NCBI RefSeq assembly: GCF_003572205.1
Contig: NZ_QXNY01000002.1
Location: 124,001 to 188,000 of the forward strand
DNA length: 64,000 nt
Reading direction: 5' to 3'
Origin: Algihabitans albus
Lineage (GTDB): Bacteria > Pseudomonadota > Alphaproteobacteria > Kiloniellales > DSM-21159
Shown: one piece after another, positions 50,977 through 60,159 of the stretch
Numbering within the stretch: the first letter of the stretch is position 1
Layout of the letters: every line of letters starts with the position of its first letter
Notes under the pieces: generated by a model
Database searches by the model: none
What the model saw: only the letters and a program-made list of their open reading frames with translations
What the model was told of the DNA's origin: nothing
Translations under genes and position numbers: made by a program

Positions 50977-52062
50977 TCACACGATGGGTAGTTCGTCCGT
51001 CAGCTCTGCGGTCGTGCCGGTTTCGTAGTCGGCTTCCGGTTCGAAGGCGTCGAGCGAGCGGGCGACCACCTTGGTACCTTGATGGCAAGCCACATGAAAG
51101 AGAGCGTCGCCTTCGTGGACCAGAGGAAGGTTGCTCCTGCCGATGACGATGCCATCGACCGTGCAGTGGATCGTCTTCTCGTTGTCGCCGAAGGGATTGG
51201 CGATGGCGCCCAGGGCCTCCCCCGCCTTGACCTGGCTTCCCAACGCCTTGGTCGCGCGAAACAGCCCGCTTTGCGGCGCCCTGATCCATCTGCTCGAGCC
51301 TATGACGAGCGGCTTGCTGGCGACCTTTTTTCTGCGGGGCGGTGCGACTGGCAGCATTTCCAAGGCGCGCATGACGCGCACGATTCCCTTTACCCCGGCG
51401 CGGATGCAGGCCTCGTTGAAGCGCAGGGCCTCGCCGGCTTCGTAGACGATGACCGGTACGTTGTTTCGGGCTGCCGCTTCGCGCAGGCTGCCCTCGCGAA
51501 AACCCGTGTTGATCACCACCGGTACGCCGAAGGCCAGGGCCAGTTTTTCTGTCTCGGGATTGTCGAGGTCGCCGCGGATCTGGGGGAAGTTGTCACGATG
51601 GATCGCGCCGGTGTGGAGATCGATACCGTGCGTCGACTTGCTGACCACCTCATCGACGAACAACCGTGCCAGACGCCCGGCTACGGATCCGCCGACGCTT
51701 CCCGGAAAGGAGCGATTGAGATCTCGGCGGTCTGGCAGATATCGAGATTGAAAGACGAAGCCCAGCACGTTCACGATGGGGACGGCAATCAAGGTACCGC
51801 GCAACTGACGGAGCGTGCTGAGGCGAAGCAGACGGCGGATGATCTCGACGCCGTTGATCTCGTCGCCATGGATTGCCGCGCAGACGAAAAGCCGCGGACC
51901 GTCGGTGCGGCCATGCACGACCTGAACCGGCATGGTCACCGGTGTATGGGTAGAGAGGTCGGTGATCGGCAGGTCGATGGTCGCCTGCCGGCCCGGTTGA
52001 ACTTCGACTCCGCCGACGGTGATCGACTCCCGCTTCGATCGCTTGGACAAGTTCAGCTCCAT
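50977..52062 (-). CDS. M14-family succinylglutamate desuccinylase/aspartoacylase
   Basis: This 361-residue zinc-dependent deacylase/peptidase is of the AstE/AspA (M14) type. Metal ligands are His65 and Glu68 in IHGDEINGVE and the histidine in IDLHTGAIH; a DRRDLNRSFPG segment supplies the substrate-binding arginine. The C-terminal extension has a HPr/biotinyl-like beta region (SGLFRATKALGSQVKAGEALGAI). It lies at the downstream end of the minus-strand RimK/MscS/MgtE block, 72 bases after mgtE's stop, and could remove amino acids added by RimK. The substrate is not resolvable. Confidence 0.88.
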   Translation of the reverse strand: MELNLSKRSKRESITVGGVEVQPGRQATIDLPITDLSTHTPVTMPVQVVHGRTDGPRLFVCAAIHGDEINGVEIIRRLLRLSTLRQLRGTLIAVPIVNVLGFVFQSRYLPDRRDLNRSFPGSVGGSVAGRLARLFVDEVVSKSTHGIDLHTGAIHRDNFPQIRGDLDNPETEKLALAFGVPVVINTGFREGSLREAAARNNVPVIVYEAGEALRFNEACIRAGVKGIVRVMRALEMLPVAPPRRKKVASKPLVIGSSRWIRAPQSGLFRATKALGSQVKAGEALGAIANPFGDNEKTIHCTVDGIVIGRSNLPLVHEGDALFHVACHQGTKVVARSLDAFEPEADYETGTTAELTDELPIV

Positions 52063-52134
52063 GGCGGTCTTTTGATCTCCGCTGCTGTCCCGTTGCGGGA
52101 CCTTCCCTGATGGCGTGAGGGCGGCCGGGACGAC

Positions 52135-53442
52135 TTAGAGTATTCCCATCAGCAGCGTCGCAATTCCGAGGAAGGAAAAGAACCCCGCAACGTCGGTGAC
52201 CGTTGTCAGGATAATGGAGGAGGATTGCGCCGGATCTTGTCCCAGCCGCTTCAGCATAATGGGAATGACGGCGCCCGCGAATCCCGCGGCAACCATCGCC
52301 AGGATCATCGAGACCGCGATGACAGCCACGAGACCGAAAGATCCGCTCCAGATGAACACGCCCAAACCGCAGGTCATGGCGATCGAAACGCCATTGATGA
52401 AACCTGTGCTGACCTCTTTGGTCATGACCTTGAACCAGTGATGCGCGGAAATCTCCCGAAGCGCGAGCCCGCGCATGGTCACTGCGAGCGCTTGAGCGCC
52501 GGCGTTGCCCGACTGACCGGCAACGACGGGCAGGAGGATGGCAAGCGCGGTGACTTGCGCGATCGTGTCCTCGAACAGCCCGACCACGGCCGCGGCCAGA
52601 AAAGCCGTCAGGAGATTGATCTGCAGCCAGGGTTGGCGTTTGCGGACGGCGAAAGATACCTTTGACAAGGCCCGCTCGTCCCGGCTCGCGCCCACCATTG
52701 TCTGGACCGCGCCGCTCGCCGCCTCCTCCAGCGCCTTCACCAGGCTCGAATAGCGCACAACGCCGACCAGGCCGCCACTGACATCGATCACCGGGATGTT
52801 CGGCAGCCGGGTCTTCTCCAGAACCTCGACGACTTCGTGCCGCGGTGCCGTGACCTGAACGACGACGGTCACCGGTTCGGCGATCTCGCGCAGAGTCTGA
52901 TCCAGGTCGGCCACCGCCAAGTCGTGGATCGCGACCCGTGCGGAAAGCCGGTTGTCGTCGTCGACCAGGAAGAGCGTGTGCAGGCCTCTCAGCTTCGATC
53001 GGCGCAGGCGCTCCAGCGCTTGGGACACCTTCATACCGGGCCGAAAAACACCGACACGCGTCTCCATGAGCCGACCGGCCGAGTCGTCCGGATAGGTCAG
53101 GAGATCCTGCAGTTCCTTGCGCAGGCTGGCGTCCAGCATCTCCAGGTAGGACTGCCGTTCCTCCTCGCTGTACTGACCGAGGAGGACCAGGGTCGCATTG
53201 GGGCTCATGCTTTCAAGCAAGCCGGTCGCTGTGGGTTTGGGCAGATAGGACAACAGCTTCGCGGCCACATCGGGCGCCAGCCAACCGAACAGTGGCGCGA
53301 TGGAGGGAATCGGCTGTTCGGCCAGAATCTCCGCGACCTCGCCGGGCGGCATCGCCTCCACCTGCTTGGCCGCATCGAGCGGGAAGTCGCGGATGTAGCT
53401 GCGGTTGAGATACTGGACGGCTTGGACGGCAGCACCGGTCAT
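52135..53442 (-). CDS. mgtE: Magnesium transporter MgtE
   Basis: This 435-residue Mg2+ channel/transporter has the full family architecture: an N-terminal superhelical domain (residues 1-120), tandem CBS domains (about 125-250) and five membrane helices from about 275. The pore helices contain ILLPVVAGQSGNAGAQALAVTMRGLAL and TTVTDVAGFFSFLGIA, the last carrying the conserved pore aspartate. It starts one base after the stop of an MgtE N/CBS protein that has no pore, so both are translated from one mRNA. Confidence 0.93.
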   Translation of the reverse strand: MTGAAVQAVQYLNRSYIRDFPLDAAKQVEAMPPGEVAEILAEQPIPSIAPLFGWLAPDVAAKLLSYLPKPTATGLLESMSPNATLVLLGQYSEEERQSYLEMLDASLRKELQDLLTYPDDSAGRLMETRVGVFRPGMKVSQALERLRRSKLRGLHTLFLVDDDNRLSARVAIHDLAVADLDQTLREIAEPVTVVVQVTAPRHEVVEVLEKTRLPNIPVIDVSGGLVGVVRYSSLVKALEEAASGAVQTMVGASRDERALSKVSFAVRKRQPWLQINLLTAFLAAAVVGLFEDTIAQVTALAILLPVVAGQSGNAGAQALAVTMRGLALREISAHHWFKVMTKEVSTGFINGVSIAMTCGLGVFIWSGSFGLVAVIAVSMILAMVAAGFAGAVIPIMLKRLGQDPAQSSSIILTTVTDVAGFFSFLGIATLLMGIL

Positions 53443-53443
53443 C

Positions 53444-54292
53444 TCACCTCTCCCCCTTGTCCGACAGTCTCGTCAGACCCGGTTCGGTCGCTGCCGCGTT
53501 CACCAAACCCATTATGCTGATCAGGAAGGCCTGGACCATGTGCGAGAGCACGACGTTGATCTGCACCGTGCTGACCTCGCCACTGTCGGCAACGAGGCCT
53601 TCGCGCAGACTGTCGAAATGCAGGACGCCGAGCAGACGCCGGCTGCGGTCGGCGACAGGTAGCGACAGTGCACTGTCCCAGGCTTGCAGGGTTACCACAC
53701 TCGTCAGCGGCGCCTGGGGCGATAGAGCGACGAAGTCCTTCTCCAGCAGATCTCCCAGCAGGTCCTTGTCGTCGGCGCTGAGCAGCGCGTCCATATCGAG
53801 CGTGCCAAGCAGTTTGCGATCGGCGTCGACCGCGAAGATCGCGGAGCCGACACGCGTGCCCAGGCCGCGTATGCCCGCCAGGCAGTCCTTGACGGAAGCG
53901 TCGACGGGAAAAATCGCGCGCGGTGCGTCCATCCAAGCCCCAACGGTTCCCGTGCCGTAGGCGAGGTAACGGCGCAGGCTCGCCGCCTCTCGCTTCGGAA
54001 GCGCCGACAGAATCTCCATGACTTGCTGTTGCGACAGAGTCCTTAGCAGCACCGAACGCGCGCTGGCCGTCATTTGGGATAAGAAAGCTGCTGCCTTGAG
54101 CGGCGCGCAGCGCACCAGCAGGGCGGATGCCTGGATGGGCTGCATGTAGCTGAGAACCAAGGCCGCGGAAGCCTCGGGCGATGCCTCTATGAACGCGGCG
54201 GCATCGGCGGGCTCGATCTGCTCGAGCACGCGGGCGGCGCCGCTCGGATGGTTCTGCAGGAATGCGAGACTTAGTTCGGAGGCTCTACTCAT
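53444..54292 (-). CDS. MgtE N-terminal/CBS-domain protein lacking the transport domain
   Basis: This 282-residue protein matches the cytoplasmic part of MgtE. An N-domain of about 110 residues (RVLEQIEPADAAAFIEASPEA, QVMEILSALPKREAASLRRYL) is followed by a CBS pair (SAIFAVDADRKLLGTLDMDALL, LGVLHFDSLREGLV). It then ends with a single hydrophobic stretch (VVLSHMVQAFLISIMGLV) instead of the five-helix pore. It is not a truncated pseudogene: the frame is clean and GAGGAGG lies before the start. It overlaps mscS by 8 bases and precedes mgtE by one base. A regulatory partner of MgtE is a reasonable inference. Confidence 0.82.
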   Translation of the reverse strand: MSRASELSLAFLQNHPSGAARVLEQIEPADAAAFIEASPEASAALVLSYMQPIQASALLVRCAPLKAAAFLSQMTASARSVLLRTLSQQQVMEILSALPKREAASLRRYLAYGTGTVGAWMDAPRAIFPVDASVKDCLAGIRGLGTRVGSAIFAVDADRKLLGTLDMDALLSADDKDLLGDLLEKDFVALSPQAPLTSVVTLQAWDSALSLPVADRSRRLLGVLHFDSLREGLVADSGEVSTVQINVVLSHMVQAFLISIMGLVNAAATEPGLTRLSDKGER

Positions 54293-55124
54293 CTTTGACC
54301 TCCTCGGCGAGCAGCGCAGTGGTTTGATCGTTGAAGATTTTTCCCGGCACGACCACTCGCCCTTCACGGGTGGCGAGAACGACGCTGACGGGCGTCAGCT
54401 CGAGAATCTCGCCCTCCACTTCACCCATGCGGGCTTGCTGCCCGGGCCGATAATGCTGCTGGAGATAGTGCGATCCGATCAGATTGCTGACGAAGCTGCT
54501 GGCCCCGAGCGCAAAAGCCAGCGATAGACTGCCGACGACCGCTGCGACGACGATGGCGATCAGGGTGATCAGCAGCGTCACGTCGATTCCGACCTGGTTT
54601 ATGCCCAGGACCAAGGCGGTTATCAGGATCGCGGCCTGCACGCTGCGCCCGAAGAGTTCGGCATGCGCGACGCCCGCCGATGCGACGGCGGCCGAGGTCA
54701 GGTCGCGCGCCAGCGAACTGATCAGCAGCCCGACCAGGATGATCAGACCGCCGGCCAAGAGCGTCGGAAGATAGGCAACCACCCGGTCGAGCCAGGCCGA
54801 GAAGGCATCCAACCCAAGGACCCTGGTCGCCGCGGTAATGAAGAAGAGGATGATCACCCAGAAGATGATGTTCCCCAGCAGTTTGACGCCGGCATTCGAG
54901 ATCCGCAGGTGACGCGCCCGCTCGGGGCCGAAGCGCCGGTCGAAGAAGCGGTTCAGCCAGTTTGACGACCTGATACCGGCCGAGCGCAGGACCCGTGCGA
55001 TCCCCCATCCGACGATCAGGATGGCCAGTGCGCCACCAAGAGTCGGAAGGAATTCGACGAACTGACCGAGGAAGCCCGATGCCGTCGCGCTGACTTCCCT
55101 GATCCAAAGGGACACTTCATCCAT
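54285..55124 (-). CDS. MscS-family mechanosensitive channel
   Basis: This 279-residue protein has four or more membrane helices followed by a short beta domain, the layout of small-conductance MscS-type channels. The pore-helix region reads VVGSLSLAFALGASSFVSNLIGS and the beta domain has VEGEILELTPVSVVL and VVVPGKIFND, as in MscS. It would release solutes on osmotic downshift. Good Shine-Dalgarno GGGAG precedes the ATG. It is followed in the same direction by the MgtE-like genes and preceded by a hairpin and rimK. Confidence 0.88.
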   Translation of the reverse strand: MDEVSLWIREVSATASGFLGQFVEFLPTLGGALAILIVGWGIARVLRSAGIRSSNWLNRFFDRRFGPERARHLRISNAGVKLLGNIIFWVIILFFITAATRVLGLDAFSAWLDRVVAYLPTLLAGGLIILVGLLISSLARDLTSAAVASAGVAHAELFGRSVQAAILITALVLGINQVGIDVTLLITLIAIVVAAVVGSLSLAFALGASSFVSNLIGSHYLQQHYRPGQQARMGEVEGEILELTPVSVVLATREGRVVVPGKIFNDQTTALLAEEVKDE

Positions 55125-55148
55125 AACTCGTCTCCCGCATCACTGCGA

Positions 55149-55196
55149 CGCCGCCTTGGAAGTCTCCCAAGGCAGCGGAAGTCTTCCAAGGCGGCG
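55149..55196 (-). other. Long inverted repeat between rimK and mscS
   Basis: Arms of 14 bases (55149-55162 and 55183-55196) are perfectly complementary, with a 20-base loop that contains a further near-copy of the CCAAGGC core. On the minus strand it lies 10 bases past the rimK stop and 24 before the mscS start. There is no T-run, so it could be an RNA processing or stability element rather than a terminator. Confidence 0.7.
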
Positions 55197-55206
55197 CACG
55201 ATCTTG

Positions 55207-56112
55207 CTATCCCCGACCTCGGGTCTTGGTCCGATTGGGCCGGGCGTTTTTCTCGAGAAACAGAATGATACTGCCCGCGACGTCGATGCCAGTGGCCTTC
55301 TCGACACCTTCGAGCCCCGGCGAAGAGTTGACCTCCATGACCACGGGGCCGTGGTTCGACCGAAGCATGTCCACGCCGCAGACATTGAGCCCCATCACGT
55401 TCGCCGCGCGCACGGCGGTCGAGCGCTCCTCCGGAGTGATCTTGATCGACTGCGCCACGCCGCCCCGGTGCAGGTTCGAGCGGAAATCGCCCTCCGCGCC
55501 CTTGCGCATCATGGAGGCCACGACTCTTTCGCCGACGACGAGGCATCGGATGTCCTGACTTCCGGCCTCCTTGACGAACTCTTGGACCAGGATATTGGCT
55601 TTGAGCCCGCCGAAGGCCTGAATCATACTTTTGGCGGCTGCCGGCGTTTCGCCCAGCACGACCCCGATTCCCTGGGTTCCTTCGAGCAGTTTGATGATTA
55701 CCGGAGCGCCGCCGAGTACGTTGAGGATGTCGTCGGCTTGGCTGGTCGAATGGGCGAAGACCGTGACCGGCAGGCCAATGCCCTGGCGCGCGAGGAGTTG
55801 AAGGCTGCGCAGTTTGTCTCGAGAGCGGGCGATGGCCACCGATTCGTTGAGTGGATAGACTCCCATCACCTCGAACTGACGAAGGACGGCCGTGCCGAAG
55901 AAGGTAATCGAGGCGCCTATGCGCGGGATCACGGCATCGAAGCCTTCCAGCTTTTCGCCTTTGTACCGCATCTCCGGTCGATGGGAGGCAATGTTGATAT
56001 AGACCCGCAGGGTGTCGATCACCTCGATCTCGTGCCCGCGGTCCTTCGCTGCTTCGACGAGACGTTGGTGGGAGTAGAGGCTCGCATTTCGGGCCATCAG
56101 CGCGATTTTCAC
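55207..56112 (-). CDS. rimK: RimK-type ATP-grasp alpha-L-glutamate ligase
   Basis: This 301-residue ATP-grasp ligase resembles RimK, which adds glutamates to ribosomal protein S6, and related enzymes that make peptide-like products. The ATP-grasp core is visible: [55 protein letters not shown] and [22 protein letters not shown], the last holding the Mg2+-binding Glu and Asn. It follows the retropepsin-like gene by 13 bases in what looks like an operon. The acceptor is unknown; S6 is only one candidate. Confidence 0.9.
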
Positions 56113-56125
56113 GGGCTTTTCCTCT

Positions 56126-56617
56126 CTACTTTGACCTGCTGGATACTGGCTTGCCGGAGCGTTGTTTGCCGCTTGTCAGAGTGAAGGAGCGTCCAGGATC
56201 GACCAGAAGATGCTGCCGCAGCGCCTGGCGGCCAAGCAGCATGCGAAAGCTCATCTGGTCGCGGTTGGTCAGGGTCATCTCGATCGGCCACTCTTCCCCG
56301 CCGACCTTCAAGGAGGTCTCGACGACGTAGCGATGTTCCTTCTCACCGTTCGAGGAGACCACGACGCGTTCGTCGATCAAGACGGCCTCGCACAACACCT
56401 CAGGGTCCCTGAGCCGCTGTAGCGGATGCACACGGAAGCGCAGCAAGCGGCGACCGCCGCGTTGAAATTGCTCGATACGAAAGGCATGCAGCGCCGAAGT
56501 CCGAGCACCGGTATCGATTTTGGCCTTGATCTTCTCTATGCCGAGTTCGGGCATGGCGACCCACTCGCGCCACCCGACGACGGTTTTCTTCGGTTTTGCT
56601 CGACCTATCGAAACCAA
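56126..56617 (-). CDS. Retropepsin-like ATP-dependent zinc protease family protein (RimB/DUF785 type)
   Basis: This 163-residue protein belongs to the DUF785 family of retropepsin-like proteases found next to rimK (RimB in pseudomonads). The active-site-type motif is [14 protein letters not shown] with Asp35, followed by a beta-rich body and MLLGRQAL near the C-terminus. The last 20 residues are basic. It starts the minus-strand cluster and precedes rimK by 13 bases. Such proteins are thought to act on RimK-modified targets; that role is inferred here. Confidence 0.85.
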
Positions 56618-58942: not shown

Positions 58943-59157
58943 CGTAATCCAGGCTTCGGCGAAAGAGGGCATTGCGTGGTCGGTTGGACGAACGCCGGAG
59001 CGGCGATGTTCGGGCGACTGCCGACAAGATGCTCCGAATTCCGGGAAACGATCAACTTTCGTGCGTTCGGCTTCTCCAGCGAGCGAACTTCCAAGGCGTC
59101 GGTCTGGGACGCGACAGGGTCAAAGCGACTCGGAGAGCGGAAAGAGGGGCGTTGGGA

Positions 59158-60159
59158 ATGGCGACGATCGAGACCTTCTGGCCGGGCCTGCGCAGGCAGC
59201 CGCACGAGAGCGCTCGGGCGCACATGGCGAGCAGGGTCCCGCGGGCAGAAACCGGCGACAGCGCCGCCGTGGTTCTGGACGACCTGCGTGGACGGCACTT
59301 CGATTGCGCAGAGGCAGTCTTCGTAACCGACCGCGACGGCCGTCTGGAAGGGATCGTCCATATCAGCGATCTGCTGGCGGCACGCCCCGACCAGGCGATG
59401 GCGGAGCTCATGGAGCCAGAGCATACGGCCGTTCATCCGGATCAGGATCAGGAAGCCGTCGCGCTGGCCGCGCTGCGCCTCGGCCTGGTTGCGGTTCCGG
59501 TGGTGGATCATGCCGGCCTGCTGCTCGGCGCCGTACCGCCTCAGGCGCTGGCTCTCATTCTTCGCCGTGAGCACGACGAGGATCTGCAACGTCTCGCTGG
59601 CATCTCGCGGGATGGCGACGACATCGCGCGGGGCGCTCTGGAGGCACCGCTTGGCGATCGACTGAAGCGCCGCCTGCCGTGGCTGGTGATCGGCCTGCTG
59701 GCCTCGTCGCTAGCGACCCTCGTGGTCGCGCGCTTCGAACACACCTTGAATGCGAACGTCGCCGTCGCCTTCTTCGTGCCGGCCCTGGTCTACATCGCCG
59801 GGGCGATCGGCACCCAGGCCGTGTCTGTCGCCGTTCGCGGCCTCGGTGCCCGTCGCATGGCGATGGGGCCTCTTCTGCTGCGGGAACTGGCAACGGGCAG
59901 CTTGATTGGTTTGGCACTGGGGTCGATCGTCGTGTTGCCGGTCTGGTGGATCTTCGACGACGGGCTGTTGGCGCTCGCCGTGGCGCTGGCCGTGCTCGGC
60001 GCCGGTACGGTTTCGGCCGTCATCGGCCTGGCGCTGCCCTGGGGCTTTCAGCGCCTGGGTTTCGACCCCGCGCTGGGCAGCGGCCCGATCTGCACCATCC
60101 TGCAGGATGTGCTCAGTCTGCTGATCTACTTCACGGTGGTGACCCTGTTGCTGCTCTAA
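59158..60159 (+). CDS. MgtE-type divalent cation transporter, short form with CBS domains
   Basis: This 333-residue protein has a CBS pair at about residues 15-130 (AEAVFVTDRDGRLEGIVHISDLL, LVAVPVVDHAGLLLGAV) and five membrane helices from about 165. The MgtE pore signature is seen as FFVPALVYIAGAIGTQAVSVAVRG, and a helix near the end has an aspartate (ILQDVLSLLIYF). It lacks the N-terminal superhelical domain of the full MgtE at 52135. It is divergent from the CoA-binding gene and converges with a Sel1-like gene, with stop codons overlapping (CTAA at 60156-60159). Confidence 0.82.
   Translation: MATIETFWPGLRRQPHESARAHMASRVPRAETGDSAAVVLDDLRGRHFDCAEAVFVTDRDGRLEGIVHISDLLAARPDQAMAELMEPEHTAVHPDQDQEAVALAALRLGLVAVPVVDHAGLLLGAVPPQALALILRREHDEDLQRLAGISRDGDDIARGALEAPLGDRLKRRLPWLVIGLLASSLATLVVARFEHTLNANVAVAFFVPALVYIAGAIGTQAVSVAVRGLGARRMAMGPLLLRELATGSLIGLALGSIVVLPVWWIFDDGLLALAVALAVLGAGTVSAVIGLALPWGFQRLGFDPALGSGPICTILQDVLSLLIYFTVVTLLLL

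Follow-up and report, generated by a model that had tools for sequence, protein, structure and literature searches.

An MgtE that keeps its pore and drops its Mg2+-sensor acids, in a conserved mscS-mgtN-mgtE operon beside rimB-rimK-astE

Introduction

MgtE is a self-limiting Mg2+ channel, shut by internal Mg2+. In a stretch of 64,000 nucleotides (nt) from Algihabitans albus (G000:C2:124001-188000, in an alphaproteobacterial genome of 4.68 Mb), referred to as a whole as the window, an mgtE gene closes a short operon that also encodes an MscS-like protein and a pore-less MgtE paralogue, for which the name MgtN was coined in this analysis. This mscS-mgtN-mgtE operon is conserved across several bacterial groups; its MgtE retains the residues of the pore, and most of the acids that serve Mg2+ sensing in the cytosolic half have been lost. 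In the window it stands between the enzyme genes rimB-rimK and astE.

The families themselves are known. The operon MgtE resembles that of Thermus thermophilus (2yvx, 2zy9, 5x9h) in its pore domain, in the pore aspartate D432 and in the N-CBS-transmembrane layout, but it lacks the sensor acids of sites Mg2, Mg4, Mg6 and Mg7, and its operon partners are MgtN and the MscS-like protein. The latter shares a pore helix and a beta domain with MscS and YnaI, from which it differs in its N-terminal helices, in having no alpha-beta cage and in matching PF05552 alone in Pfam. As in the Pseudomonas rimABK system (PMC11957791), RimB is found beside RimK, and RimK scores above the S6-ligase cut-off; here, however, the third member is of AstE type, RimB reaches 139 against a cut-off of 200, and the C-terminal Glu of S6 is not conserved in relatives. 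The rloABC genes of Pseudomonas aeruginosa likewise combine a retropepsin, an ATP-grasp enzyme and a membrane protein, and they have a hypo-osmotic phenotype, but there an inactive transglutaminase forms the membrane part, and the protease is a secreted one (PMC12239564). Finally, the AstE, AspA and DoeB deacylases (3cdx, 6twl) have the fold family and zinc motif of the window enzyme (HGDE, DLH, YEAGE), which differs from DoeB in its score (69 bits against a cut-off of 402.7) and in being tied to rimK. In the open-licence literature, neither an mscS-mgtN-mgtE operon nor a naturally sensor-less MgtE paired with a pore-less protein was found described, nor was there a paper treating rimK together with "succinylglutamate desuccinylase".

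The locus comprises the following features:

56126..56617, minus strand: rimB, TTG start; retropepsin-like aspartic endopeptidase with a DTGA motif
55207..56112, minus strand: rimK, GTG start; ATP-grasp alpha-L-glutamate ligase
55132..55201, minus strand: very stable RNA hairpin in the rimK-mscS gap (-44.5 kcal/mol, z -5.3 against shuffles), with no T-tract
54285..55124, minus strand: mscS-like gene; transmembrane helices with the pore helix and beta domain of MscS, C-terminal cage missing
53444..54292, minus strand: mgtN; pore-less MgtE paralogue with N domain, CBS pair and one C-terminal hydrophobic or amphipathic helix
52135..53442, minus strand: operon mgtE; pore intact, cytosolic Mg2+-sensor acids gone
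50977..52062, minus strand: candidate AstE/AspA-type zinc deacylase or exopeptidase gene (astE), grouped with rimB-rimK in most relatives

A check of the sequence places the six open reading frames at these positions, from 56617 down to 50977, with gaps of 13 nt (rimB-rimK), 82 nt (rimK-mscS), 1 nt (mgtN-mgtE) and 72 nt (mgtE-astE), and an overlap of 8 nt between the mscS and mgtN frames. An initial annotation of this DNA had called all six genes, pore-less MgtE protein included, and the reading frames and family matches bear out their place and strand. The gene that it took for an M14 deacylase matches the AstE/AspA catalytic domain (PF24827). Its view that the added channel genes are unusual and have an osmotic or Mg2+ flavour was judged right.

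A conserved, translationally coupled operon

The operon was traced by searching 58 relatives with MgtN and 289 genomes of the class with an MgtN profile, and by a contig scan with a profile of the MscS-like protein. The scan gave 50 loci, 32 of which (L062-L093) belong to the window's MscS subfamily. An MgtN-like gene comes next after mscS in all 31 loci that have a next gene (the contig of L082 ends directly after mscS, and this locus is left out of the 31), and mgtE is third, with order and strand unchanged, in all 29 loci that reach that far. The taxa concerned are Kiloniellaceae, other Rhodospirillales, Betaproteobacteria and Gammaproteobacteria. The scan was not blind, its seeds having originally been found via MgtN; as a control, the other 18 loci (L094-L111), which have a different MscS type, are without any partner gene. 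Starting from MscS only, 274 gammaproteobacterial genomes yielded 27 matches in 25 genomes. At E <= 1e-60, MgtN adjoins 18 of 18 matches (three of them seeds) and MgtE 17 of 18, the remaining one lying at a contig end. Among the nine weaker matches, MgtN is beside two; the seven without it include one match at a contig edge.

In 26 of 31 loci the mscS frame runs into that of mgtN, the commonest overlap being 8 nt. Between mgtN and mgtE the spacing ranges from -14 to +23 nt across 30 loci (L066, at a contig end, is excluded). Given these frame overlaps and small gaps, mscS-mgtN-mgtE is a translationally coupled operon.

Its distribution is patchy even within the genus, since the matches to MgtN listed for the same-genus genomes G001 and G002 are ordinary-type MgtE only. 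In G019, an operon-type MgtE (L121:1260-2582) has first codons that run into unrelated sequence, and no mgtN or mscS lies upstream on the contig. A CNNM/CorC-type gene adjoins the operon in five loci (L079, L081, L082, L084, L091), and in four loci from Kiloniellaceae (L062-L065) the operon is followed by genes for CorA and cation efflux.

The operon MgtE keeps the pore and loses sensor acids

By Pfam, the window protein is a full MgtE. For comparison, 35 operon MgtEs and 34 other MgtEs, whose rows are related and not independent, were aligned to T. thermophilus MgtE. The second set results from 44 loci tried, eight of which had no frame above 400 aa, while L039 and L040 were removed as operon MgtEs. 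In the pore, every one of the 35 operon MgtEs has an acid at D418, D432 and E359, and G328, N329 and Q333 (the G-N-x-G-x-Q region) are present in all 35. The cytosolic sensor is a different matter. At E59, D91, D95, D214, D246, D247 and E258, acids occur in 0, 0, 2, 0, 5, 2 and 0 of the 35 operon MgtEs, versus 27, 33, 28, 28, 32, 33 and 30 of the 34 others (the sensor role of D214 and D246 is taken from the column pattern alone). Over these seven columns a single operon MgtE has 0 to 2 acids and any other MgtE 3 to 7. The host's ordinary MgtE (C2:735 kb) holds all seven; the window's operon MgtE is without E59, D91, D95, D214, D226, D246, D247, D250, E255, E258 and D259. The same pattern holds, at the columns that could be compared, in 15 more operon MgtEs from Gammaproteobacteria, with an acid at E59, D91 and D95 in 1, 0 and 0 of them, and the orphan MgtE of G019, which is outside the 35, lacks the seven sensor acids as well.

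In published work on T. thermophilus MgtE, the D91A/D247A (site Mg4) and D95A (Mg6) mutants are still open at 20 mM Mg2+, and the E258Q, D259N, E59A and D432A mutants define Mg2, Mg3, Mg7 and Mg1, respectively (PMC5882242). Since the sensor acids are lost and these mutants stay open, the operon MgtE is predicted to be unable to close itself with Mg2+; judging by its residues, it should be an MgtE pore protein that is not Mg2+-self-gated.

MgtN and the MscS-like protein

MgtN matches MgtE_N in Pfam, with a CBS match just below the cut-off (23.8 against 24). The MgtE pore domain PF01769 finds no match in it, and the C-terminal part has one helix only; in the group to which the window belongs this helix is hydrophobic, in other members more amphipathic. 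The predicted fold (pLDDT 85) is that of the MgtE cytosolic half, and the Foldseek matches include 2zy9 with a TM-score of 0.73. In a quick tree, the MgtN proteins group in a single clade (99% support) that is separate from operon MgtEs and other MgtEs, and they are mostly without Mg2+-sensor acids. The MgtN set excludes L068 (cut) as well as L071, L088, L089, L090 and L092, whose rows held the MgtE frame instead, and L084 yielded no MgtN row.

In the predicted structure of the MscS-like protein (pTM 0.54), long N-terminal helices are followed by a pore helix and then a beta domain, both resembling those of MscS. The match of these last two elements to MscS is weak in sequence (E about 8e-4); in the fold comparison it reaches E 4e-8, but with a TM-score of just ~0.3 it is a local match. 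The C-terminal alpha-beta cage (PF21082) is absent, as the chain ends after the beta domain.

The rimB-rimK-astE module

RimB belongs to PF05618 (E 2e-38) and is the sole PF05618 gene found in this genome; its best NCBIfam match is RimB, at 139.2 bits below the equivalog cut-off. RimK matches PF08443 and Rimk_N and, with 442.6 bits, passes the NCBIfam S6-glutamate-ligase cut-off of 331. In the AstE-type enzyme, the zinc ligands HGDE, DLH and YE are invariant in 13 of 13 rows. Its subfamily was found at E <= 1e-60 in 31 of the 289 class genomes, and 30 astE loci, three of them seeds, were read with 1.5 kb on each side. In 22 of these 30, astE has RimK and RimB as immediate neighbours; among the other eight, the window has the mscS cassette in between and seven are without a rim gene within the span. 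The RimK-protease pairing pointed out in the initial annotation was right. A small protein of unassigned family is encoded immediately upstream of rimB in 11 loci, including L112:10142-10465, L113:6926-7243 and L063:5020-5412; the two members scanned have no Pfam match, and the window showed no copy of it.

RimB stimulates RimK and cuts polyglutamate (PMC11957791). Cells depend on RloA proteins, which are secreted RimB relatives, to survive hypo-osmotic conditions, and a role in glutamate-polyglutamate homeostasis has been suggested as a possibility for the Rlo system (PMC12239564). The rim module would make and cut poly-alpha-glutamate or glutamyl tails, with AstE probably trimming or deacylating them; the AstE-type enzyme could complete a polyglutamate cycle, its substrate being inferred. 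Ribosomal protein tags, which the initial annotation had in view, fare less well. The host S6 does end in Glu, and so do those of G039 and G239, but these are just three of the ten rim-bearing genomes checked, which makes S6 doubtful as a common target or conserved purpose of the rim genes across the group.

Two modules that recur as neighbours

The same six-gene block turns up in further families, both within the order and elsewhere in the class, so it goes beyond chance. The initial annotation had named rarity of this neighbourhood as grounds for giving up its idea, and that refutation fails. Twelve alphaproteobacterial genomes found via MgtN have both the operon and RimB, and in ten of them, from seven families, RimB lies within 8 kb. 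In the alphaproteobacteria the parts come in four arrangements, and a gammaproteobacterium adds a convergent one:

rimB-rimK-[operon]-astE: window, L112, L113
rimB-rimK-astE-[operon]: L062-L066, L114
[operon]-rimB-rimK-astE: L075
modules divergent, with a CNNM gene between them: L081, L084
modules convergent: L076, a gammaproteobacterium

The exceptions are G177, where the two modules are far apart, and G039, with no rim gene within 8 kb upstream of the operon, and RimB was not found in the operon genomes G120, G290, G138 and G252. Among the 32 contig-scan genomes, 21 have RimB, in nine cases within the stretch read; several of these nine genomes also belong to the 12-genome set. Module adjacency is an alphaproteobacterial habit, plus one gammaproteobacterial case. 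That it is kept through rearrangement points to shared use and not to a single machine.

The hairpin in the rimK-mscS gap may divide or stabilise the transcript. No terminator-like site was found on the minus strand within that gap, and the corresponding gaps of L112 and L113 have no obvious sequence in common with the hairpin. A further MgtE gene lies near the block (58972-60159, plus strand), with CBS and pore matches and no MgtE_N match; the L114 block is likewise adjoined by another MgtE.

A possible mechanism and its alternatives

A Mg2+ channel with no means of shutting itself would harm the cell, so a different gate is to be expected, and the strictly linked MgtN and MscS-like proteins are the candidates. 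We tentatively favor a reading, possible though short of probable, in which the three products assemble as a multi-subunit Mg2+ channel, often encoded beside a polyglutamate turnover module, whose gating has shifted from Mg2+ feedback to signals of MgtN and MscS. MgtE would give the pore, with no closing in response to internal Mg2+, and the gate would be formed jointly by MgtN and the MscS-like protein that has no cage. MgtN could take the place of another MgtE cytosolic half, and the membrane part of the MscS-like protein could bring in tension, Mg2+ flux most likely being coupled to membrane tension or turgor. Next door, RimK would build poly-alpha-glutamate or glutamyl tails, RimB would cut them internally, and AstE would probably trim or deacylate them; poly-alpha-glutamate would constitute a large anionic pool that binds Mg2+ and K+. 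The repeated adjacency of the modules suggests a single physiological task, which would be to keep the Mg2+ and glutamate pools matched during osmotic change. The more specific version, a truly tension-gated channel whose sensor-less MgtE has come under an MscS-type sensor through the pore-less MgtE copy, with polyglutamate enzymes often alongside to let Mg2+ and the polyanion that buffers it shift together with turgor, is unlikely as it stands.

Several observations weigh against the favored reading. E216, E217, E255 and D259 are retained in 27, 30, 28 and 26 of the 35 operon MgtEs, so that in some of them sensing may be reduced rather than gone; the window protein has lost E216, E255 and D259, unlike most. 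The operon MgtE may also be simply deregulated, and PF05552-type proteins need not be tension-gated. RimB lies 700 kb from the operon on the same contig in G177, and most gammaproteobacterial operons are without rim genes within 8 kb, which argues that the modules work apart. The orphan MgtE of G019 is perhaps due to a deletion, or to misassembly in a fragmented genome.

In another explanation, MgtN alone might act as a gate in trans, pairing with the MgtE cytosolic half and answering a CBS ligand (a nucleotide or another), while the MscS-like protein would merely be co-expressed for osmotic relief. In its fold MgtN copies the cytosolic domain of MgtE, its gene is translationally coupled on both sides, and MgtE CBS domains bind ATP (PMC5529423). 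The MscS-like subfamily is nevertheless tied to MgtN as strictly as MgtE is, and the T. thermophilus ATP-site residues are poorly retained both in operon MgtEs and in the rest, which gives no pointer to a ligand; we regard this explanation as rather unlikely. The presence of CNNM/CorC, CorA and a second MscS near some loci would fit a loose ion-homeostasis neighborhood, with three separate stress proteins (a leaky Mg2+ channel, a small osmotic channel and a stray regulator) sharing one operon and forming no complex. The invariant gene order, the overlapping frames and the joint loss of sensor acids in MgtE and MgtN speak against such independence, which seems quite unlikely.

Blocks of all six genes in several families would suit one membrane-coupled peptide-tag or protein-tag system, the make/trim/remove set of six parts put forward in the initial annotation. 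But the genes sort into two modules, and each is also conserved on its own. Loci with rimB-rimK-astE and no channel genes are widespread, and so, in Beta- and Gammaproteobacteria, is mscS-mgtN-mgtE, in most cases with no rim genes nearby. As both modules occur alone, a single six-gene system was rejected as the principal interpretation and is highly improbable.

Significance

A conserved MgtE clade with an intact pore but no sensor, accompanied by a copy lacking the pore and an MscS-like protein lacking the cage, amounts to a natural experiment on channel gating. It also provides an ionic context for the poorly understood rimB-rimK system. If the proposed channel is real, Mg2+ entry would be linked to the osmotic state of the cell.

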